From an uncultured Eubacterium sp. (GTDB taxonomy: Bacteria; Bacillota; Clostridia; Lachnospirales; Lachnospiraceae), in contig CAOKNO010000005.1 in NCBI GenBank assembly GCA_948470065.1, positions 1-64,000 on the forward strand: a stretch of 64,000 nucleotides of DNA. The letters are read 5' to 3'. Of this stretch, positions 6,393-55,283 are shown piece after piece. A program made the translations under genes and the position numbers. How positions within the stretch are numbered: position 1 is the stretch's first letter; the number at the start of each line of letters is the position of its first letter. The notes under the pieces were generated by a model. That model was not told the DNA's origin. It was given only the letters and a program-made list of their open reading frames with translations, and did not search any database.

Positions 6393-7565
6393 CTAATACC
6401 CATAGAAATAGTTATACCCACAGAACCTCTGGGCGATGGGATCGTAATAGACCCCAATCGTATTTTCCCCTTGCATCAACAGCAAGATCATTTCACCCAA
6501 ATCCACAATTTGATACGAAAAGCCTGGCGTGGCATTCTCCACGCTTTCCTCCGAAGCGTCTGGAAACGCTGTATTCCCATCTATTTCAAGCGCCGTTCCA
6601 GTTTCGGCATCTACAACCCCACTGGCCGCGCTCTTTTTTCCGTCCCCGCTCCCAGATATCTCTTCTTGGGAATTGCCAGCGTCCTCCTTCGCTTCTATCT
6701 CGCTCGCCTCATAAGCATCCGCCTCATTGGAATCGATATTGCTCTCCTTCACCAAATCCCACATGATTTCGGCTGTCGAGATCCGCCCTACGAGTATGTC
6801 GTCCAAAAACCGCAGGCTCTCCAAGTAGCAATTGATCCGTTCCCCGTCCGGCCCAAACAAGGTCACATCGCCCAATTCATATACAAACACCATGTATTGG
6901 TAGTAATCCTCCAGCCGGGTTTCTTCCTCCTTCAACAGATCCACCAGCTTTGCTTTCCCTGCCTCCCAAATACCCTTGTTGCATTCCCCAGACCGCTTTT
7001 CTGCACATAGGAAGCTGATAATGCTGTCATTCCTCATGGCAATCCTCACTTGATACTGCGTTTGCTCCAGTTCCAGGGAATCCTGGTAAAAATAGAGGGT
7101 TCCGGCAACAGAATTTTCCACAATCCGTATGTCGTCCATGATGGTACTGTTCTTTGCGCCATAAACGCCTTCTAGCTCGCCAACCGATACCCCTGCCTGA
7201 TAGGCAATCAGTTCCTCCAGACAAATATTCTGCCATGCCTTCATTTCCGTTTCGTCTATTTCCCCAAACTCGTTTATCGACAAATTATACTGAAAAAATG
7301 GATGTAGCATATTTCCCCACGCGTCTTTGTTATCCCACCCTTTTTTTGCTTTCTTGCCAGGGTAATAATTCCATGGGAACAATTCAATGTCCTCTTCTAT
7401 TTTGCCATAAAAAATATTTGAGCTGGTATCTTCAAAACTCGTTTCTTCAATTATAGCTTCGTTCTCTAAGACTTTCTTGCCGCTTTCCATAATCACAATG
7501 TACCCAGCCCACAAGATACAGGCTGCAAAGAGGAAGGTTAAGAAATAGGATTTCACCTTATGCAT
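6393..7565 (-). CDS. Exported hypothetical protein linked to a two-component system
   Basis: I do not recognise this 390-residue protein. Residues 7-27 form a signal anchor or uncleaved signal peptide. The rest is predicted extracytoplasmic and acidic, with a low-complexity Ser/Glu/Ala stretch at about 285-345 and an aromatic C-terminus (RFCGYNYFYGY). Its start overlaps the histidine kinase stop by eight bases and has an AGGAGG site, so it belongs to the operon response regulator, kinase, this protein. Third genes in such operons often tune the kinase from outside the membrane. That role here is inference. Confidence 0.75.
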   Translation of the reverse strand: MHKVKSYFLTFLFAACILWAGYIVIMESGKKVLENEAIIEETSFEDTSSNIFYGKIEEDIELFPWNYYPGKKAKKGWDNKDAWGNMLHPFFQYNLSINEFGEIDETEMKAWQNICLEELIAYQAGVSVGELEGVYGAKNSTIMDDIRIVENSVAGTLYFYQDSLELEQTQYQVRIAMRNDSIISFLCAEKRSGECNKGIWEAGKAKLVDLLKEEETRLEDYYQYMVFVYELGDVTLFGPDGERINCYLESLRFLDDILVGRISTAEIMWDLVKESNIDSNEADAYEASEIEAKEDAGNSQEEISGSGDGKKSAASGVVDAETGTALEIDGNTAFPDASEESVENATPGFSYQIVDLGEMILLLMQGENTIGVYYDPIAQRFCGYNYFYGY

Positions 7566-8976
7566 GGAGTTCCCCTCCTTTCATACGGATCAACACGCTT
7601 GTCCCTTCCCCCGGCCGGCTTTCAAACTGCATTGTCCCACGGTGGTAAGCAACAATTTCCGCGCAAAGCGCAAGCCCAAGGCCAGCGCCTCCGCTCGCGC
7701 GGCTTCTGGCTTTGTCCACCATATAGAATGCCTGGGTAATCTTTTCAATCTCCGCTTCTGGGATGCCGACCCCTTCGTCCGTCACCTGGATGAAGAACTC
7801 CTCCCCCTCAAAGCGCCCCCTCACCTGGATCTGGCCACCCTCTTTGGATGCCTTTATCCCATTGTCTACCAGGTTATAAAGCAAGGATTTGAACAGCTCC
7901 TTGTCCACATTCAGCAATCCTGGTTCTGATTCGCATGAAAATAAAATCTTATGGCTTTTGGCTATGATATGGAGCGATACGCCGATTTCGGCAAAAAGCT
8001 GCTTCATATCTTCCTGCTTCCATTCCAGCTCTCCTTCCCCTACCGTAATCAGTTCCATCAGCTTCCCGGACAGCGTGCGCATACGGCTGGCTTCTTCCTT
8101 GATAATCCCCGCATATTCTATCCTGTGTTCCTCTGAAATATCCTTTTTAATCAAGAGCAGATCGGAAAACCCAAGAATCGACGTCAGCGGCGTCTTCATT
8201 TCATGGGAAAGGTTATCAATAAAATGCTTCCTGTCCTCCGCCACTGCCTCAAGCGCCCTTACGTTCCTCTCTACCGCCCGTGCCATCCGGTTCATATTTT
8301 GCGCAAGCTCGGATAATTCATCATGCCCCCGCTCCGGGATCCGCTTTTCATAGCTGCCCTGGGCAATCGCCCTTGTCCCCGCATTGATTTTCTGCAAAGG
8401 AAGCATCAGCATCTTTACCACAATCAAAAGGATGAACGCAATCCCGATCGCGCACCCCATACTGATTGCTAGGATCTGCCTCAGCATGTCCTCATGGATA
8501 TCCACCACATCGGAAATATCGTTTTCCGTCACGATATAATACGTCTTCCCTTCCATGTTTTCCGCAGACGCAGTATAGAGCTGATGCCCGCTTACCTGCA
8601 TATAACTCTTCTGGTTGTCTTCCTGGACAGCTTCTAACAGCCCCTTCGGCAGTATCATTTCCTTATTCGCATAGACCTGTTCCCCCTGGGTATTGCAGAA
8701 CTGGATCCCACTCTCCCGCTTCGCGGATCCAAAGGTTTCTTCCATATAGCCCTTCAATGTCCCTTCGTCCAATACAACCGCATTTTCACGCAGCCGTTCC
8801 GTAACCATCATACTTTTAAAGCTGGTAACCACAAATTCATGCTCGCTGTATACCCCCTGCTTGCGCTGCCCCAAAGCCAGGGAAAAACTATTTTTCAATA
8901 GCAAAATACTGGTCATGCTTACTGCTAGCATCACCAGTACCAACGTGTATAAGAATATTTTCTGCCAAAGCCTCAT
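7558..8976 (-). CDS. Sensor histidine kinase with extracytoplasmic sensor domain
   Basis: This 472-residue kinase has two membrane segments (about 7-28 and 166-190) around an extracytoplasmic domain of roughly 140 residues that looks like a Cache/PAS-type sensor. A HAMP domain follows (PLQKINAGTRAIAQGSYEKR), then the H-box in FIDNLSHEMKTPLTSILGF, an N-box (YNLVDNGIKASKEGG), and G1/G2 boxes (VTDEGVGI, GGAGLGLAL). It is encoded directly after the response regulator at 8981-9643, which should be its partner, and before the exported protein at 6393-7565. The signal sensed is unknown. Confidence 0.93.
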   Translation of the reverse strand: MRLWQKIFLYTLVLVMLAVSMTSILLLKNSFSLALGQRKQGVYSEHEFVVTSFKSMMVTERLRENAVVLDEGTLKGYMEETFGSAKRESGIQFCNTQGEQVYANKEMILPKGLLEAVQEDNQKSYMQVSGHQLYTASAENMEGKTYYIVTENDISDVVDIHEDMLRQILAISMGCAIGIAFILLIVVKMLMLPLQKINAGTRAIAQGSYEKRIPERGHDELSELAQNMNRMARAVERNVRALEAVAEDRKHFIDNLSHEMKTPLTSILGFSDLLLIKKDISEEHRIEYAGIIKEEASRMRTLSGKLMELITVGEGELEWKQEDMKQLFAEIGVSLHIIAKSHKILFSCESEPGLLNVDKELFKSLLYNLVDNGIKASKEGGQIQVRGRFEGEEFFIQVTDEGVGIPEAEIEKITQAFYMVDKARSRASGGAGLGLALCAEIVAYHRGTMQFESRPGEGTSVLIRMKGGELHA

Positions 8977-47304: not shown

Positions 47305-47595
47305 TCATTTTCCGAACAAATCGCTGTGTAACCCGGCACGGGATAAGGTCAGCACCAGAACATTATCATCAATGCGGTAGATAAGCAGCCAGTTGGGCAG
47401 CACATGGCACTCACGGTGTCCGGCCCAGTTCCCGGACAGGGCGTGATCCCTGTTTTTCTCCGGGAGGGGGATACCCATGGCAAGGTCGGCGATCACGCCC
47501 TCCAACAGGCTGATGTCCAGCCCGCGCCTCATTGCCAGCTTGTAATCTTTCTTGAATTGTGTGGTAGGCTTGACGGTATATTTTGCGTTCCTCAT
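47305..47595 (-). CDS. yafQ: YafQ-family toxin
   Basis: This 96-residue RelE-superfamily ribonuclease cuts mRNA on the ribosome when free. Family features are FKKDYKLAMRRGLD, LPEKNRDHALSGNWAGHREC, and the C-terminal LVLTLSRAGLHSDLFG, whose His near the end is catalytic in YafQ. Its ATG overlaps the antitoxin stop (ATGA). The toxin looks intact, and so does its antitoxin. Confidence 0.93.
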   Translation of the reverse strand: MRNAKYTVKPTTQFKKDYKLAMRRGLDISLLEGVIADLAMGIPLPEKNRDHALSGNWAGHRECHVLPNWLLIYRIDDNVLVLTLSRAGLHSDLFGK

Positions 47596-47870
47596 GCTTT
47601 CAGGTACGCGAACAGTTCGTCCAGATCGGTATACCCTTTCACTGTCTGGTCTTTCGCAATCCTTTCTGCCTCCAGCATAGCGGCAACCGTTTCGCTGTTG
47701 GGCTGGTTGAGGGAAACGTCAAAGGGAATCCGCCCCTCACGGAGAGACTGGCGGACAAAAATATTGAACGCCGTTGTCAGGTTCATGCCGAGTTCCCCGA
47801 ACAGCCTGTCAGCCTGCGCTTTCAGGTCTGAATCCATACGGATGCTGATGTTTGTAGTAGAGCCAGCCAT
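47592..47870 (-). CDS. dinJ: RelB/DinJ-family antitoxin
   Basis: This 92-residue antitoxin has an N-terminal ribbon-helix-helix (NISIRMDSDLKAQADRLFGE, then GMNLTTAFNIFVRQ) that binds its promoter, and a C-terminal toxin-binding tail. Start at ATG 47870 behind AAAGGAG; a longer frame to 47939 has no support. It neutralises YafQ and should repress the operon together with it. Confidence 0.93.
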   Translation of the reverse strand: MAGSTTNISIRMDSDLKAQADRLFGELGMNLTTAFNIFVRQSLREGRIPFDVSLNQPNSETVAAMLEAERIAKDQTVKGYTDLDELFAYLKA

Positions 47871-47900
47871 ATAACCATCTCCTTTCCTGCTGGTGGTTAC

Positions 47901-47939
47901 AGTATATGCTATCTGCACGAAAAATACAATATTCTGCAC
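47901..47939 (-). promoter_or_regulatory. dinJ-yafQ promoter with repeated operator
   Basis: On the minus strand TTGTAT, 17 bases, TATACT. The heptamer GTGCAGA occurs twice (plus-strand TCTGCAC at 47912 and 47933), 21 bases or two helical turns apart, one inside the spacer and one just upstream of the -35. This is a likely autoregulatory site for the ribbon-helix-helix antitoxin. Confidence 0.55.
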
Positions 47940-47988: not shown

Positions 47989-48304
47989 TTATTCCATATT
48001 GAGAAATTCAGCCGGCGTCATAATCATTGGATTCTCCAAACCTGATTCCAGAAAATCCTTGTCACCAGTAAGCAGGACATCAGCCTTCGCCGCAATCGCC
48101 GCCCTTAAATTTTAAGAAATTTGTCCAATGCCGCCAGACGTTTGGGGAATTTTTTACTGAATATCCGTTTCATTTCGTCCACATTCTGCTCACAGATCAA
48201 TCCGTGGTTAGGATAAGAGGCTGCTTTTACATAAGCCTGATAGGGAACACCGTTTGCGCTCAATGCAGCAGATATGAGGACATTTGTATCATCAGAACCC
48301 TCAT
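47989..48304 (-). pseudogene. Broken PIN-domain toxin
   Basis: The gene starts at ATG 48304, overlapping the antitoxin stop (ATGA), and begins MRVL. A one-base deletion then shifts the frame to DTNVLISAALSANGVPYQAY, the first acidic motif of COG1569-type PIN nucleases. The frame ends at FLKI with a stop. The C-terminal piece resumes in another frame as ADVLLTGDKDFLESGLENP and ends at FLNME. The middle, about 40 residues with one catalytic acid, is missing. The toxin must be inactive. Confidence 0.7.
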
Positions 48305-48435
48305 GCGTTTTCGTCCTCATTTCTCAATTCTTTTACAAGCGCCATAACATCATCGTCAGATGTAAGACTGACCCGCTCTGCTTCGCCTGCCATTTCCCCC
48401 TGGAGCATCTGCATGGAATGGGCTTTATCGGACAT
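48301..48435 (-). CDS. Small antitoxin-like protein of the broken PIN pair
   Basis: A 44-residue frame starts MSDKAHSMQMLQGEMAGEAE and ends KELRNEDENA, overlapping the toxin start by four bases. Position and overlap fit the antitoxin of a type II pair. It may be only the C-terminal part of the original antitoxin, since I see no DNA-binding fold in it. I saw no clear ribosome site. Confidence 0.45.
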   Translation of the reverse strand: MSDKAHSMQMLQGEMAGEAERVSLTSDDDVMALVKELRNEDENA

Positions 48436-48512: not shown

Positions 48513-49979
48513 TTACACACTTTTTAAGAATTCCGTACCCTGGCTTATGATTCTGTCGTATCTGGCTGCATTTACGCTTTTCAGCCATGCGATTTTCCCT
48601 GTGATTTCATGGATTGTCTTATCTGATACCGAACCGCCGGATTCTTTTAATTTCTGTGCGTTGTGGATCGAGGCTTTTAATATTTTCACCCATTTTTTCG
48701 GGACGCCGATTTCTTCGTTGTTAATGACAATGCCTGTAATATACTGTCTGTTGTGCTTTCTTAAGATATGCGTTTTTTTATCCTTCATATGGAAGCCTTC
48801 GGACTCAATGATTTTACGGATGCTGTTTAAAAAGCTTCCTATGGCAAATTGCTCGCAAGGGCCTGTATAGCTAAAGCTCATATCATCCGCATATCTGGTA
48901 TAAGTAAGCCCTAACGTCTTGCACAAGCCATAGATACGCTTATCCATGTTCCTACATATGATATTTGTAATCATCGGGCTTGCCGGGGAGCCTTGCGGCA
49001 ATATCCGGCCAGACGTCTTGATATATTTTACCTCTCCTTTTACTTCAAGCGGCATACGTTCGCAATACGTACAGATCATTGCAAGCAGCGACGCGATATA
49101 GCCCGAGTAGCCAAAGGACTGGAACAAGCCTCTTACACGCTCAAATGTAATCGTAGGGAAAAAGTTTTCCAAATCAATATTGATCAGTACATCTGGGCTT
49201 GTGCCATGTACCTTTGCGCCTGTAAGGACGGATCTTGATTTGGCAAACCCATGAGCCAAATCCGAAATTTCCACCTTTTGCAGGATCTGTTCTAAGATTT
49301 GTTTCTGTACGGCTTTCAATTGTGTTTTTGGCGCGGCGATATGGCGTGTCCCGCCGCTTTTTTTCGGGACGTCGAAACGGTAATAATTGTCAAAGGTAAT
49401 AACGTCCCTATGGTACGCCAGATAGCGCAAGGTGTTGTATTCGATCTGTAGGAACTTGGCAAGTTCCTTGTCTGTTTCGATCACAGGCATCTCGTTTGCT
49501 TCCAGCTTTTGCACGTTGGTTTCTTTCTTCGCCAACAGACCGGAATAGCCCTTCCCAATAAACAGGATATTCTCTGCCTTTTTCTTGTTCCACGCTTCTG
49601 ACTTTAATTGCTTCTGCCGTTCCCTCCCTGCCTTTCTTTCGGCCCGCCTGGCAATGGATTCTTTCATGATTTCCTGGGCAACGGCAGAACGGATTTTTTC
49701 ATAATCCCAGGTATCCTGGAACTCTTTTTTCAAATGAGAAAGCTTCTTTTCAATTTCTTGTTTTTCTTTGCAGGCGTCTGATATTTTTTCCGAAAGATTT
49801 TGAAATTCATCCAACAGCTTCTTCCTGTTTTCAAAATCCTGCGGCGATTCATTTTGCTGGCGCTCATATGGCGTCGGCAGATGGCTGGGCCAAAACCCGT
49901 ATTCCTGCATTTTAAGGAACGTGAATTCTTTTTTCCCCATATGCTTCACTAATTCTCTGTATTCCGCTTTCGTATCCAT
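48513..49979 (-). CDS. Retron-type reverse transcriptase
   Basis: This 488-residue enzyme should copy part of a structured RNA into DNA primed from an internal guanosine. Residues 1-165 form a basic, coiled-coil extension that is unusual for retrons. The reverse transcriptase core has INIDLENFF (Asp269), LPQGSPASP (327-335) and catalytic YADD (363-366). Retron markers are GAKVH (254-258) at the place of NAxxH and ITG (414-416) at the place of VTG. No maturase or endonuclease domain of group II introns is present. It is the last gene of a three-gene operon; its start overlaps the previous stop (TAATG). The candidate template RNA is at 54810-55011. Confidence 0.9.
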   Translation of the reverse strand: MDTKAEYRELVKHMGKKEFTFLKMQEYGFWPSHLPTPYERQQNESPQDFENRKKLLDEFQNLSEKISDACKEKQEIEKKLSHLKKEFQDTWDYEKIRSAVAQEIMKESIARRAERKAGRERQKQLKSEAWNKKKAENILFIGKGYSGLLAKKETNVQKLEANEMPVIETDKELAKFLQIEYNTLRYLAYHRDVITFDNYYRFDVPKKSGGTRHIAAPKTQLKAVQKQILEQILQKVEISDLAHGFAKSRSVLTGAKVHGTSPDVLINIDLENFFPTITFERVRGLFQSFGYSGYIASLLAMICTYCERMPLEVKGEVKYIKTSGRILPQGSPASPMITNIICRNMDKRIYGLCKTLGLTYTRYADDMSFSYTGPCEQFAIGSFLNSIRKIIESEGFHMKDKKTHILRKHNRQYITGIVINNEEIGVPKKWVKILKASIHNAQKLKESGGSVSDKTIHEITGKIAWLKSVNAARYDRIISQGTEFLKSV

Positions 49980-51736
49980 TATAACAACATCTCCATAATA
50001 TCATTGATTTTATATTCTTTTCCATACTCCAGGTTCTTTAGCTTTAACAGCTTATAAGAAGCAACGTAAAGCGCAAGGATATGGGCGCAAGGGTCGGACA
50101 AGTTCCTCTCGCCTCTCTTGAATTTCGCGCAGCTACAGTTTAATTTCGTGATCTGCCCATCTTGATCGATGACAAGCTCGGTATCGGACGCTTGGCCGTT
50201 TTCCTTGTATGTTGTCGTGAATATAAACTCGTGCTGATGCGAGTACCTCACCGTCATATTGTCAAAGGTAAGCTTACTGATTTTCCCGACGTCCAGCTCC
50301 AGATCCGAAACCTCATAAAGTTCCTCTGGAATGGGGGCGTTGCATAATTGGCGGAAACGTACGCTGTCATTGATGATATCAAAATACCCTTCGCCCCGCC
50401 GCAGCAGCATCCCTATGCCAGCCTTTACCTGATCGCTTTTTTGGTTAGGAAGACAACCGGATATTTCATCCATTGTCAAACTGCGCCGTTCCTTCAGCAG
50501 CTTATAAATATCCGAATAGCAGCCTTCCCCTGTAAACCCTGCCATAATATTGAACGCGGTCCCTTTTACCCAGTCGTTGGAAGACCATGAAGAAAAACCG
50601 ACCGTCATTTGCATTACGCCCAGATCGGCGCGGATAAACTGAGGCATCCCAAATCCCAGCATACGCACATAAAACGCTTTAGCTAAGGGAATTAACGGCT
50701 CAACGACAAGCCAGCGCCTTCTGCCCCAGATTTTCTCTTCCCTTCTTTGGTTCCCTTGGTAAATAGCGTTTAAGGTAAGGGCTGTCCCAAACGGTTCAAA
50801 TACAATCTCCACTCTTTTGCCTGGCTCTAAGATCCATTTCATATAACGTGGGCTTTTCTTCTCCTTGTGCTTCCTTAAAAACGCACAGATATCGTACATA
50901 TCAGAAGGAGAAAGCATAAGCTCCACCCCAGACAGCGCCGCTGCCGAAGATACCTGGTTAAAGCCCTTGATCCATGTTTCCGGCAGATCAATTTTCTTCT
51001 CAATATATTCCGGCACAATATCATTCTCTATCGTAAAGCCCCCTGGGTTGACCGATAACGTGACGTCCGTATAGCTTCGGAACCTCTGCATTTCTTTCTC
51101 TAATTTGGCGGAAAAATCAATGTTTGTCGTCCCTAATCCTGGCGTCTGCAGCAAATCAAATTCATCCATAGGGACGGACAGGCAGCCATAAATAGACTCG
51201 TCAAGCGAAAACGCCTCGAAAGAAACCTGATCGTTATGTACTGTAATCACAGGGTCTAACACAAACCATAAGCTGTAGTCCCTGTCCTTGATAAACTTCC
51301 AGAAGTCCCGTTCGATTTTATAATAATCCTTCCATGCGTCATACTGGTCAATTTGCTTTTGTAAATTCCTCTGTATCTGTAATAGCTGCTCTATCTCATC
51401 TTTTTTCTGGGACAGATCAACGTCATAAGCATCCATTTCTTGCTTTAACGCTTCCCTGACCTCTGGCATATATTCCTTGTGCGCTTTTACACGCCGTTCG
51501 ATTTCCTCGTCAAGCCATGTGAAATATTCCGTTCTTTCCTTCGTCTTTTTCCTTGTATCGGAAATAACAATCTCCCGAAGCATAAGCATGGCGTCGCGGA
51601 ACACTAACGGATGCTTTAATTTCCCGCAGAACGAAACCTTTTCATCCCGGGATAAATCCGGGCTTAGCCCTAACGTTGTCTGGCCGCCATCCTGCGTACA
51701 CCGGGAAGGGCTTGCATATTTATAACCTACCTTCAT
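49979..51736 (-). CDS. Winged-helix and SWIM zinc-finger protein of the retron operon
   Basis: This 585-residue protein has an N-terminal coiled coil (about 65-150), a middle region of unknown fold, a winged-helix-like segment (about 408-465, LLKERRSLTMDEISGCL), and a SWIM zinc finger near the C-terminus (Cys534, Cys536, Cys550, His552, CxCx13CxH). SWIM fingers bind DNA or protein partners. The gene overlaps both neighbours by four bases or fewer, so the three products are made together. As I recall, a retron class is defined by just this WH-SWIM protein with an ARM/HEAT protein. It may bind the msDNA or act as part of the effector. Confidence 0.8.
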   Translation of the reverse strand: MKVGYKYASPSRCTQDGGQTTLGLSPDLSRDEKVSFCGKLKHPLVFRDAMLMLREIVISDTRKKTKERTEYFTWLDEEIERRVKAHKEYMPEVREALKQEMDAYDVDLSQKKDEIEQLLQIQRNLQKQIDQYDAWKDYYKIERDFWKFIKDRDYSLWFVLDPVITVHNDQVSFEAFSLDESIYGCLSVPMDEFDLLQTPGLGTTNIDFSAKLEKEMQRFRSYTDVTLSVNPGGFTIENDIVPEYIEKKIDLPETWIKGFNQVSSAAALSGVELMLSPSDMYDICAFLRKHKEKKSPRYMKWILEPGKRVEIVFEPFGTALTLNAIYQGNQRREEKIWGRRRWLVVEPLIPLAKAFYVRMLGFGMPQFIRADLGVMQMTVGFSSWSSNDWVKGTAFNIMAGFTGEGCYSDIYKLLKERRSLTMDEISGCLPNQKSDQVKAGIGMLLRRGEGYFDIINDSVRFRQLCNAPIPEELYEVSDLELDVGKISKLTFDNMTVRYSHQHEFIFTTTYKENGQASDTELVIDQDGQITKLNCSCAKFKRGERNLSDPCAHILALYVASYKLLKLKNLEYGKEYKINDIMEMLL

Positions 51737-54516
51737 AAAGCGCTTACCTCCTTCTGGATCTGAGCAAATGCTACAAGCGCCCGTTCAGAATCTATTTTGC
51801 TGTTTGTGCTTCCGATATCAAGAAGCATCTGCTCGATTTCCTGCCGCTTTTGGGGATAATATTCCAAAAACAACGGAATCGTACGATATACATGTTCCTT
51901 ATCCTTCGATACCCGGTTCGGCAGATAAAGCAGCGTTTTGGCATAATAAAGATATAGATCAGGATTCGTATCCTTAAAGTCCGAAAAGGCTTGTTTGATT
52001 TTCCCAGCAAGATAAGCCTTTACTTCCACGCATGGATGCTCCATCATACGTGTCATAAATTGCGTCGGGATCTTGTTCCCATACCATTCGTCAAGCTTTT
52101 CTAAACCATACTGATAGGTCCTTTCGACAGGGGAATCCAATAAAAGCATATGTAGCTTTTCCCTTTTTCCAATCCCACAGCCTTCCAACACAGACTTCGC
52201 GATTTGGTTCAAATGATACACGTTGCATTCCAAAAGCAGAAGGAGCGCAGACGCCCGCTCAGCAAGCGCCTCCTGATGGCGCCCTATGATTTCGGTCAGC
52301 GTTTTCACAAGCCTCTTAGAGCCTGTTTCCAAAATAGACAAGATTAAGCTATCCTTCGGCAAAGCGTCCTCTTTGCATGATTCCAGCAGCGCTATGGTGT
52401 TGTATTCCTTCTCAGGAATCTTATCATGCCGTAGATCAATGTCCTTAAGCATCTCGTTCAATACGCCGCACGGCGCAAAGAATACGATTTGTTCTGTTAT
52501 GTCAAACAGGAAGCTGGGAAGCTTTTCTAGCCTTAGCAGCAAGGATACAAAATAACGCAGCAAATCCTTCTGTTCCTCTGACGTTGCAGCTTCTAATTTA
52601 CCAACAGATGTTAACAATAATTCTGTCGCCTGCCCCGGAAGTTCTATTTGCCGCTCCAAAAAGCGTCCCCTGTTTTCAGCGATTGATTTTAGGAAAACCG
52701 TATATTCTTCCACGGAAAATTGATTCAGATTGTCTTCCAACACACTATACCATGTTTCTATGGTATCGAGAAACAGGAAACCAGCGATATCTTCCGGCTG
52801 GAACTTCCCATTCGTCCTCCGAAAATATTCCTTGGCCGCATCCCACAATTTTTCCATCGGCGTATTCATTAAGGAAACCATAATGCCTGCGTCAAACTCC
52901 TGCAATGCTTCTAACCTGGGCAGCAGTATCCCTTCAAAGATCGCCGCCGTCTTTTCATACGGTATGTTGGAAAACGCAATCAGCTCTTTGATCCCAAAAG
53001 CGTCTAGCTTATGCTCTGCTTGCGCCCTTTTTAGGAGTGCATAGCAGAATTGATGTACCGGCACGGCCTTTGCATTTTGGGCGATAAACAAAACGTCCGT
53101 CAGATACCTCCGCCAGATGGAACGCCCTGTTGCGTCATCGCTTGCCGCCACTTCCCGAAAATATCGGTTAAAAAAGTAATTGCCCGAGAAATCGTCGCAA
53201 TAGACGTCCATATTGTCCCATCCGGTATAGCTTACCAGCATCTCACGCGCGGCCGCTATAAATTTTGCCTCATCTGTTGCCAGATACCCGTCAAGCGTCC
53301 TCCTAAGGTAACGCACGTAGTAATTGTATGCGCCGGTCCTGCCGCTTCCTTTAAAATAATAGGTCGTCCTTGGGGCGTCTAAGTAATAAGCGATTTTCCC
53401 AATCGCATCCGCCATCCCATATGCCTTTGCAGTCTGTATGGCGTTTTTAAACGCGATATTCTTCACGTTCCTACCATCTGTGTAAGTATTGTTATCATAC
53501 AGGTTCTGGCTCCCAAAGATGTAAAACATATTTTGATAAGCATTCGGCCGCTCTAAATATTCCTGGAGCTCTTTGCCTTTGCGTTTGATCCCGTTTAGCT
53601 TTAAGTGTTTGATATGGAAATCCATTTCAGGAAGCGTCTGGTATAGAAGATCCTTCTGCTCCTGAAGCAGCTTCTCGTCAAATACGGCGGTATATTGGCG
53701 GATACAGCGTTGCAGCCCACTGTGATATGCTTCGCTTGCCCATAATACGCCGCTTCTGTCTATCCGCCCTGCGGTTTCTAATAAGATTGGATTCTTCTCT
53801 ACCGTAAGTTCCTGGAAAATGCCGCACGCCAGCTCTACGCTTGCCACCTTTAAGATACGTTCATATTCTTCTACAGAAGGCTGCGTTTCGATCCATTGGC
53901 GCAGGTATTTTATCCTGGCATACAGACGCTGGCCCGAACACATATGTATGGCCATTTCCATCTTTGGGCTGCCTGCTTCAAAGCCAAACAGGACACTGGG
54001 ATCCTGAATCAATTCAAAATCTTGGAAACGGATTTGATGTTCCGTTAAATAAGCGGCGTAATCCGTATAACCCATGTCCTCATAATAGTTAAACACAACG
54101 TCCTGTTTTAACTCATAAAAATCTTTGATGATATATTCCTCATCAATATCTATATACTGCTGCCATCCTGTCCTCTGGTTATAATCCCAATATCTGTGCG
54201 CCGTTTTATAGCCCTTGCTATAACAAAGCACGTTCTTTTCTTCACAGTAATGTGTATTTGGGATAGAAGGCAGATGCCCGTTTACCCCATGGAAAACAGC
54301 GTAATGCGTATAGCCCACCGTAGGCTTTAACACGTATGCATCTGGATAATAGGAGCGGGGGGATTTCCTCAATTCCCGCTCGATCTCCTGCTTCCCATAC
54401 AAAATAAGCAGACAGGGATTCTTCTGGCTGTCAAAGCCCCATAGCAGTATCCTACGGATTGGCGGCTCTTCTAGCTTCCAGAGCCGCCGCTCTTCCTCTG
54501 ATGTTACATTCTTCAT
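51733..54516 (-). CDS. Large ARM/HEAT-like helical protein of the retron operon
   Basis: This 927-residue protein is first in the operon. Residues 1-190 are rich in aromatic residues (for example YWDYNQRTGWQQYIDIDEEY). From about 300 on the sequence is almost all amphipathic helices with HEAT/ARM-like pairs (for example in 735-860, RLVKTLTEIIGRHQEALAER). I see no enzyme motif. Such scaffolds often hold partner proteins or sense a trigger. An AGGAA-type site precedes ATG 54516, and the stop overlaps the WH-SWIM start (ATGA). In the operon it likely works with the WH-SWIM protein as effector or scaffold. Confidence 0.75.
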   Translation of the reverse strand: MKNVTSEEERRLWKLEEPPIRRILLWGFDSQKNPCLLILYGKQEIERELRKSPRSYYPDAYVLKPTVGYTHYAVFHGVNGHLPSIPNTHYCEEKNVLCYSKGYKTAHRYWDYNQRTGWQQYIDIDEEYIIKDFYELKQDVVFNYYEDMGYTDYAAYLTEHQIRFQDFELIQDPSVLFGFEAGSPKMEMAIHMCSGQRLYARIKYLRQWIETQPSVEEYERILKVASVELACGIFQELTVEKNPILLETAGRIDRSGVLWASEAYHSGLQRCIRQYTAVFDEKLLQEQKDLLYQTLPEMDFHIKHLKLNGIKRKGKELQEYLERPNAYQNMFYIFGSQNLYDNNTYTDGRNVKNIAFKNAIQTAKAYGMADAIGKIAYYLDAPRTTYYFKGSGRTGAYNYYVRYLRRTLDGYLATDEAKFIAAAREMLVSYTGWDNMDVYCDDFSGNYFFNRYFREVAASDDATGRSIWRRYLTDVLFIAQNAKAVPVHQFCYALLKRAQAEHKLDAFGIKELIAFSNIPYEKTAAIFEGILLPRLEALQEFDAGIMVSLMNTPMEKLWDAAKEYFRRTNGKFQPEDIAGFLFLDTIETWYSVLEDNLNQFSVEEYTVFLKSIAENRGRFLERQIELPGQATELLLTSVGKLEAATSEEQKDLLRYFVSLLLRLEKLPSFLFDITEQIVFFAPCGVLNEMLKDIDLRHDKIPEKEYNTIALLESCKEDALPKDSLILSILETGSKRLVKTLTEIIGRHQEALAERASALLLLLECNVYHLNQIAKSVLEGCGIGKREKLHMLLLDSPVERTYQYGLEKLDEWYGNKIPTQFMTRMMEHPCVEVKAYLAGKIKQAFSDFKDTNPDLYLYYAKTLLYLPNRVSKDKEHVYRTIPLFLEYYPQKRQEIEQMLLDIGSTNSKIDSERALVAFAQIQKEVSAL

Positions 54517-54544
54517 AATGATTCCTTTCTACCAAAGCTAACTA

Positions 54545-54667
54545 CCCCACGACAAGCTGGCAGGGCGCTTACCCTTGCGGCATCCACAAAATATCCATAC
54601 ATACCGCTGGGCACATAGCATGGCTATTTCCCTAAGCGCCCTTTGTGCGTATTGCATGTGGGAATAA
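54545..54667. repeat. Foldable repeat inside the retron operon 5' region
   Basis: It runs from CCCCACGACAAGCT to ATGTGGGAATAA. The arms GGGCGCTTA (54563-54571) and TAAGCGCCC (54633-54641) pair perfectly, and CCCAC/GTGGG closes the outside. It lies between the operon promoter and its first gene, so it would be in the mRNA leader. Read on the minus strand it also contains short frames with no sign of being genes. Related copies are at 46267 and 63165. Confidence 0.7.
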
Positions 54668-54702
54668 AAGCCGCCATATGGTTTCTATTATAAATATATA
54701 AA

Positions 54703-54731
54703 ATTATAGTATAATTTCCACTAATTTTCAA
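54703..54731 (-). promoter_or_regulatory. Promoter of the retron protein operon
   Basis: On the minus strand TTGAAA, 17 bases, TATAAT. The predicted leader before the ARM/HEAT gene is about 180 nt and includes the foldable repeat. Confidence 0.7.
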
Positions 54732-54773
54732 GCAAATTGGGGATATCATTTGAGAACATCAGATAAAATTTAG

Positions 54774-54801
54774 TTGACATTTTTGAAATATATGATACAA
54801 T
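54774..54801 (+). promoter_or_regulatory. Promoter of the retron non-coding RNA
   Basis: On the plus strand TTGACA, 16 bases, TACAAT. Transcription should start at about 54808, two bases before the first end repeat of the RNA. It diverges from the operon promoter, whose -35 box is 43 bases away. Confidence 0.7.
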
Positions 54802-54809
54802 TTATAAAA

Positions 54810-55011
54810 AGGTTAGATTTTCTGGCCAAAATGCTTTGGGGATGCTCCAAGGTTGTTCTTTATTAGCCATTTCACCACAATGTTCTGCGTCACTCGCACG
54901 GTATTCGACACTAGTGCGTTTTGACAGTAGCCTGCGGCAGAAACGCACTAGTGTCGCACCGTGCTAAAGTGTCAGAACAGAGTATAAGATTGTTTGCAGA
55001 AAATCTAACCT
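54810..55011 (+). ncRNA. Candidate retron msr-msd RNA
   Basis: The ends AGGTTAGATTTTCTG (54810-54824) and CAGAAAATCTAACCT (54997-55011) are 15-bp perfect inverted repeats, like a1/a2 of retrons. G54825, next to a1, could be the branching guanosine. The msr-like half has a small hairpin CTTTGGGG/CTCCAAGG (about 54834-54852; CCAAA/TTTGG is an alternative). The msd-like half is a long stem: GTTCTG/CAGAAC, CACT/AGTG, GCACGGT/ACCGTGC, then a 16-bp perfect stem (54906-54921 with 54941-54956) and a 19-base loop. Orientation follows from the plus-strand promoter and from msr preceding msd. The rest of 54517-55283 holds two promoters, one repeat and AT-rich DNA. Confidence 0.75.
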
Positions 55012-55283
55012 GGTTTATTGCGTTGCCTTGTCCAATGTTAATTTACCATCATATAATAGATCAATAGTTTTTTTAATTCAATACGCTATTCTTTCGGCAT
55101 TGTCTTTTCTATCCATTGTTTTGTTTTTTTATCTCCCTATTCTGCGACCACACCACTTTACCTTCGTGCATATAAAAAGACCATCCATCCTCAAAATGCC
55201 ATATCAATCACCACGAAAATATTTATACCATTAGAAGTAGTCATTTTATACCTTTTCCAATCGCTTTTTTGAAAACTAAAAAC

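Follow-up and report, generated by a model that had tools for sequence, protein, structure and literature searches.

Introduction

In classical retrons, such as Ec86 (Eco1) and Ec67, the RNA gene lies just 5' of the reverse transcriptase (RT) gene, on the same strand and in one transcript. Retron RNA follows a general plan, with a1/a2 end repeats, a G directly after a1, an msr hairpin and a long msd hairpin, and retron RTs need the end stem formed by a1 and a2. The effectors of other retrons are nucleases, NADases and membrane toxins. The type XIII class of retrons is reportedly due to Mestre et al. in 2020. Retron-Kva2, a type IX retron, has two accessory proteins, including a winged-helix protein, in the retron complex and a HEPN RNase as effector (PMC13405049).

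The locus described here lies in a window of 64,000 nucleotides, the whole stretch of DNA that was analysed. It has all three protein families in one operon, as do type XIII retrons (PADLOC families RT_XIII, SWIM_XIII, WGR_XIII and HEAT-ARM_XIII), and the type XIII RNA found here and in related systems may be divergent from the operon, downstream of it, arranged in arrays or located on another contig. The RT belongs to the same family as those of Ec86 and Ec67, and the RNAs of those retrons likewise have a1/a2 ends, a G after a1, an msr hairpin and a long msd hairpin; unlike in Ec86 and Ec67, the RNA forms a separate unit, the RT is predicted to be trans-acting, and the effectors differ. The two accessory proteins recall Retron-Kva2, but no RNase or nuclease family was matched in the present system, in contrast to the HEPN RNase of Retron-Kva2. 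We consider it probable that this is a type XIII retron in which the RNA lies apart from the RT gene under its own predicted promoter, and in which the RT is predicted to bind this RNA in trans and to copy its long hairpin into an msDNA that restrains the SWIM and HEAT proteins until it is disturbed by a phage. No RNA for type XIII was found in the literature that could be searched, and such an RNA may already be in print. The class itself has already been named; the RNA and its freedom of position may be new, as may the arrays and the clamp fold.

The operon and its proteins

All three genes lie on the minus strand, with overlaps of 1 and 4 bases, in agreement with the single overlapping operon of RT, WH-SWIM and ARM/HEAT genes that had been described in an earlier note on this DNA:

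48513..49979, minus strand: RT, type XIII retron reverse transcriptase, 488 aa, with an N-terminal extension of about 150 aa and a YADD motif
49979..51736, minus strand: SWIM protein, 585 aa
51733..54516, minus strand: HEAT/ARM-repeat protein, 927 aa, with an N-terminal beta domain followed by a helical superhelix
54703..54731, minus strand: operon promoter-like site, TTGAAA-17-TATAAT, an 11/12 consensus match only

The RT matches PADLOC RT_XIII (E 1.1e-155) and the SWIM protein matches SWIM_XIII (E 7.2e-177). The match of the 927-aa protein to WGR_XIII is weak for the window alone (E 1.1e-5, over 106 residues only); of the 32 family members aligned for this protein, 30 match WGR_XIII (best 1.8e-25) and five match HEAT-ARM_XIII. 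With RT, SWIM and ARM/HEAT (WGR_XIII) genes in a single operon, the locus belongs to type XIII, as the earlier note had proposed. The YADD motif, which is the YxDD motif of this retron-clade RT, is invariant across 49 RTs (Y363-D366, alignment A4), as are residues A255/H258 and T415/G416. A model of the HEAT/ARM protein (pLDDT 89) is mostly alpha-helical from about residue 184, and its Foldseek matches are SF3b/karyopherin-like. The window RT was used to fetch 56 further loci, giving 57 systems including the window; the ARM, SWIM and RT genes occur in that order on a single strand in 51 of the 56, and in the other five (L014, L018, L047, L051 and L056) the available sequence stops short of the ARM gene or of the SWIM gene.

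Three parts can be distinguished in the SWIM protein:

Residues 35-385: predicted PCNA-like clamp fold with a coiled-coil insertion (structure model)
Residues ~388-461: helix-rich segment, read as the winged helix to which the class name refers, from secondary structure only
Residues 528-557: SWIM zinc finger

The predicted model, made from 35 sequences, has a sliding-clamp fold, a likeness of fold for which membership of the PCNA family is not claimed. In a Pfam search with the 35 SWIM-protein members, the SWIM family was matched in 33, and no PCNA family was found among the best 25 of the 55 families listed at E <= 1. The clamp-like region is about 10% identical to PCNA and 9-1-1 sliding clamps, and, unlike these clamps, the SWIM protein has a coiled-coil insertion and a fused SWIM zinc finger. 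For a bacterial SWIM zinc-finger protein in a retron, such a clamp-like fold may be new and, if the model is right, would suggest a type of effector other than nucleases, NADases and membrane toxins. Distant SWIM proteins from Streptomyces plasmids align over part of the clamp-like region, so the fold may extend beyond retrons.

The RNA gene

The RNA gene and its elements are all on the plus strand of the window:

54774..54801, plus strand: predicted RNA promoter, TTGACA-16-TACAAT with an extended -10 TG (consensus match)
54798..55020, plus strand: retron RNA gene (covariance model R1, 233.3 bits, E 4.6e-56, the window copy being among the 30 training copies of R1)
54810..54824, plus strand: a1 end repeat, pairing with a2
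54825, plus strand: candidate priming guanosine directly after a1, its role taken from other retrons
54833..54853, plus strand: msr-like hairpin (helix 2, 98.1% of cells paired)
54881..54979, plus strand: msd-like long hairpin (helices 3 and 4; apical stem 54906-54956)
54997..55011, plus strand: a2 end repeat, pairing with a1

The a1 and a2 repeats are perfect 15-base complements, and the window RNA folds at -87.2 kcal/mol (z -7.75, 200 dinucleotide shuffles). A G after a1 and msr and msd hairpins complete the anatomy of a retron RNA, in which the copied part is putative. Searches with the window RNA alone (nhmmer) recovered divergent copies in Lachnospiraceae-type loci and weaker copies 3' of the RT gene in Clostridium-type loci. 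The earlier note had suggested a covariance model from homologous loci as a check; such a model, R1, was built from an alignment of 30 divergent copies (A1, from which the cut-off copies of L007 and L021 were left out) and gave 81 matches over the window and the 56 loci. Of these matches, 32 are divergent copies (E 5.2e-58 to 4.9e-40), 27 lie 3' of the RT gene, on the RT strand (E 2.8e-27 to 2.7e-11), none of which was in the training set, and 22 are weak or mirror matches (E 1.7e-4 or worse).

Alignment A5 contains 65 copies from 50 sources fitted to R1 (L007, L021 and L024 being left out though copy-bearing). In this alignment 94.5% of cells are paired, versus 39-44% in slid versions, and two-sided changes occur in 33 of 41 pairs (shuffled mean 22.1, with none of 500 shuffles as high) and in 446 cells, against 132.8 in shuffles. 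Being fitted to the structure, A5 is biased in its favour; in A1, made independently with MAFFT, two-sided changes still occur in 17 of the 41 pairs. The a1/a2 helix shows such changes in 14 of its 15 pairs over the 65 copies, and the position directly after a1 is G in all 64 copies having a letter there. In each of the 64 copies that are long enough, a slice over the msd is more stably folded than the average of 30 mononucleotide shuffles (median z -6.85, range -2.3 to -11.2). One pair is G-U in 65/65 copies and G-U is the commonest form of some other pairs; these pairs fit the plus strand only, and the RNA strand is therefore fixed, R1 scoring 233.3 bits on one strand and 23.5 on the other. 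The RNA of about 200 nt claimed earlier, with 15-bp end repeats and msr- and msd-like halves, is thus upheld by covariation over 65 copies, and the type XIII class is now supplied with a covariation-supported RNA.

In all 24 systems with a divergent RNA, the copy proximal to the operon has a sigma-70 site (10-12 of 12) with a TG before the -10, and four Lachnospiraceae-type copies on other contigs (L085, L086 twice and L087) have the same type of promoter (10-12 of 12 plus TG), the match being 8 of 12 for the other-contig copy of L088. Secondary copies of divergent arrays reach 7-9 of 12 with no TG (10/10 readable copies), and 22 of 28 downstream-type copies beside the RT score 9 or more. Single promoter sites mean little, because shuffling of the window region gives about three sites of at least 9 matches per kb on both strands; it is the near-constant place before a1 that counts. 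The RNA's own promoter and the divergent promoter pair postulated in the earlier note accordingly correspond to promoter-like sequences, the RNA-side type being present throughout the divergent systems.

Co-occurrence and position of the RNA and operon

The RNA is a genuine element that goes with the operon. With the SWIM gene as a proxy for the operon, R1 and the SWIM protein each match six of 299 family genomes, the six being identical, and five of 391 class genomes, again the identical five; no R1 match was found in the 293 and 386 SWIM-free genomes of these family and class samples. RNA and RT system are therefore linked across genomes. The R1 genome runs used stricter filters, with which some weak matches were lost. 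The window's own genome, in which only one RNA copy was matched, is in both samples, as are some other genomes, and four of the ten distinct positives (the own genome, L002, L019 and L055) contributed to A1, as judged by equal scores and places.

In the window, a1 lies about 4.8 kb from the RT start codon and the RNA is on the opposite strand, as the earlier note had it. Across the 57 systems, the RNA is divergent in 24 (L014 and L018 being counted through two contig pieces, L089 carrying ARM and SWIM and L090 carrying ARM), downstream of the RT in 25 (including L050, via L091, which carries the RT end), on another contig in four (L015, L016, L023 and L051) and not found in four; the classical arrangement, directly 5' of the RT on the same strand, was found in none of the 57. 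Operons without a similar RNA, which the earlier note had named as counter-evidence, were sought, and an RNA is present in the locus or genome for 53 of the 57 systems. Of the remaining four, L010 and L044 end where the RNA would be expected, and L004 and L047 (with 3.2 kb of sequence after RT) have the proteins and the expected place with no RNA, R2 and genome-wide searches also being negative. L106, a remote proteobacterial type XIII-like operon, had no significant R1 or R2 match. A retron RNA gene need not, then, be tied to the RT gene: its side, strand and, in drafts, contig can change.

An RT tree was made from 49 of the 57 rows; those left out (L014, L024, L038, L044, L048, L050, L051 and L056) are mostly partial, frameshifted, extended or near-duplicate, L014 being complete. 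The 22 divergent rows all belong to a single set of 27 (SH-aLRT 100), which also includes three other-contig rows and two with no RNA. Downstream rows lie around this set and at its base (L027, L034 and L036), with a weak deepest split. Excluding the rows with no RNA, at least four changes of place are needed, and in the simplest interpretation the RNA gene moved once, from a position 3' of the RT to the divergent place, with separate losses of linkage afterwards.

The RNA-bearing stretches on other contigs (5.6 to 18.0 kb) gave no tblastn match to the three operon genes. They hold complete RNA copies at L085:5511-5736, L086:17161-17672, L087:8886-9109 and L088:2886-3107, with a strong promoter for four of five copies and no operon genes. 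Neighbours of these RNAs are a two-component/D-ala ligase cluster, an oxidoreductase-like gene that precedes the RNA (named by eye), an argininosuccinate lyase gene and a PD-(D/E)XK transposase gene. L015, L016 and L023 each come from a genome with a single SWIM gene, which is on a different contig from the RNA; the L051 case is weaker, because no SWIM gene was found in its genome, G011.

RNA arrays

More than one RNA copy is present in eight of the 57 systems: six in L017, four in L054, three in L039, two each in L013, L025, L056 and L016 (on L086, both with a promoter) and at least two in L018 (on L090). The RNAs of L017:3818-5214 (six) and L054:4286-5217 (four) are in tandem, with one promoter before the first copy, and the four-copy array is from a complete genome, that of Clostridium sp. 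MD294 (strain ASF356). These two loci are 94% identical in RT DNA and 90% in ARM DNA; two of the msd classes have one more copy in L017. With arrays whose msd hairpins differ, what the msd stem senses becomes directly testable inside one genome.

Alternative explanations

The position of the RNA away from the RT gene would also suit an RNA that is used by the RT other than as a classical template, with DRT-like repeated or infection-only copying and no 2'-5' branched msDNA. The profile of the 49 RTs does match DRT2 RTs, weakly (E 7.1e-8), but among solved structures retron RTs come top and are far nearer (Ec86 RT, E 8.3e-59; Ec67, E 1.1e-46), PADLOC assigns the RT to RT_XIII, and the a1/a2 stem, invariant G and msr plus long msd hairpins are those of the retron plan, which makes DRT-like copying distinctly improbable. 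A role of the RNA solely as a regulator of the divergent operon (antisense, attenuator or decoy), with no function as an RT substrate, might be read from the divergent promoter-like sites in a single intergenic region, but is very hard to reconcile with homologous RNAs after the RT gene in 25 systems and on another contig in four, and with the covarying end stem.

Doubts of another kind concern the draft genomes and the arrays. All four genomes with the RNA on another contig are MAGs, and binning errors could have brought RNA and operon together; this seems rather unlikely, given that no SWIM-free genome of either sample had an R1 match, so that a stray contig must come from another operon carrier, and that the genome of L023, which corresponds to G210 as judged by matching places, has listed values of 98% completeness and 1% contamination. 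It is unlikely that the array copies are decaying duplicates devoid of function, as might be supposed from the 10/10 readable secondary copies of divergent arrays that lack a good promoter of their own and from a few broken stem pairs. L017 and L054 share four msd classes, arranged in an identical order, with counterparts 74-98% identical versus 18-62% between different classes; when counterparts are compared (five comparisons), 108 stem pairs are unchanged, 11 differ on both sides, one differs on one side and seven are broken. These few data, from two close relatives, indicate that distinct msd stems have been maintained.

Proposed mechanism

For a type XIII retron with a trans-acting RT, the RNA is likely to be copied into DNA, and a role in anti-phage defence is likely by analogy with the retron class. 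The RT would bind the a1/a2 end stem and prime at G54825; retron RTs bind an inverted repeat and prime at a guanosine (PMC13405049). The msDNA would be templated by the 54881-54996 region and released as hairpin DNA, and RT-msDNA would be bound to a complex of the HEAT scaffold and the clamp-like SWIM protein, neutralising both. Phage functions that cut, modify or bind the msDNA would then free the SWIM/HEAT pair, which is proposed to clamp DNA because it has no evident nuclease, blocking replication or transcription, so that cell arrest would end the infection.

In genomes with arrays, a single transcript would give rise to a set of msDNAs that differ in their stems, and sensing would be wider. 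More speculatively, and with some doubt, such systems might be multi-msDNA retrons, in which a trans-acting RT serves an array with a single leader promoter, the DNAs acting as baits for different phage functions and being coupled to a PCNA-like clamp with a fused SWIM finger, which would lock DNA once a bait is hit. A separate RNA unit of this small size, with a promoter of its own, would be convenient in tools as an ssDNA donor.

Gene neighbourhoods

L030 has an otherwise complete operon in which a TnpB-like gene (6434-7822, 462 aa, named by eye) separates the HEAT gene from the SWIM gene. L039 and L042 have operons and RNA on contigs filed as Lokiarchaeota MAGs. Past the RT end of the operon, at a distance of about 0.6 kb, the window has a RelB/YafQ-type toxin-antitoxin pair (47305-47939). 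The interval contains a short PIN-like remnant (48105-48320), whose match falls under the Pfam cut-off.
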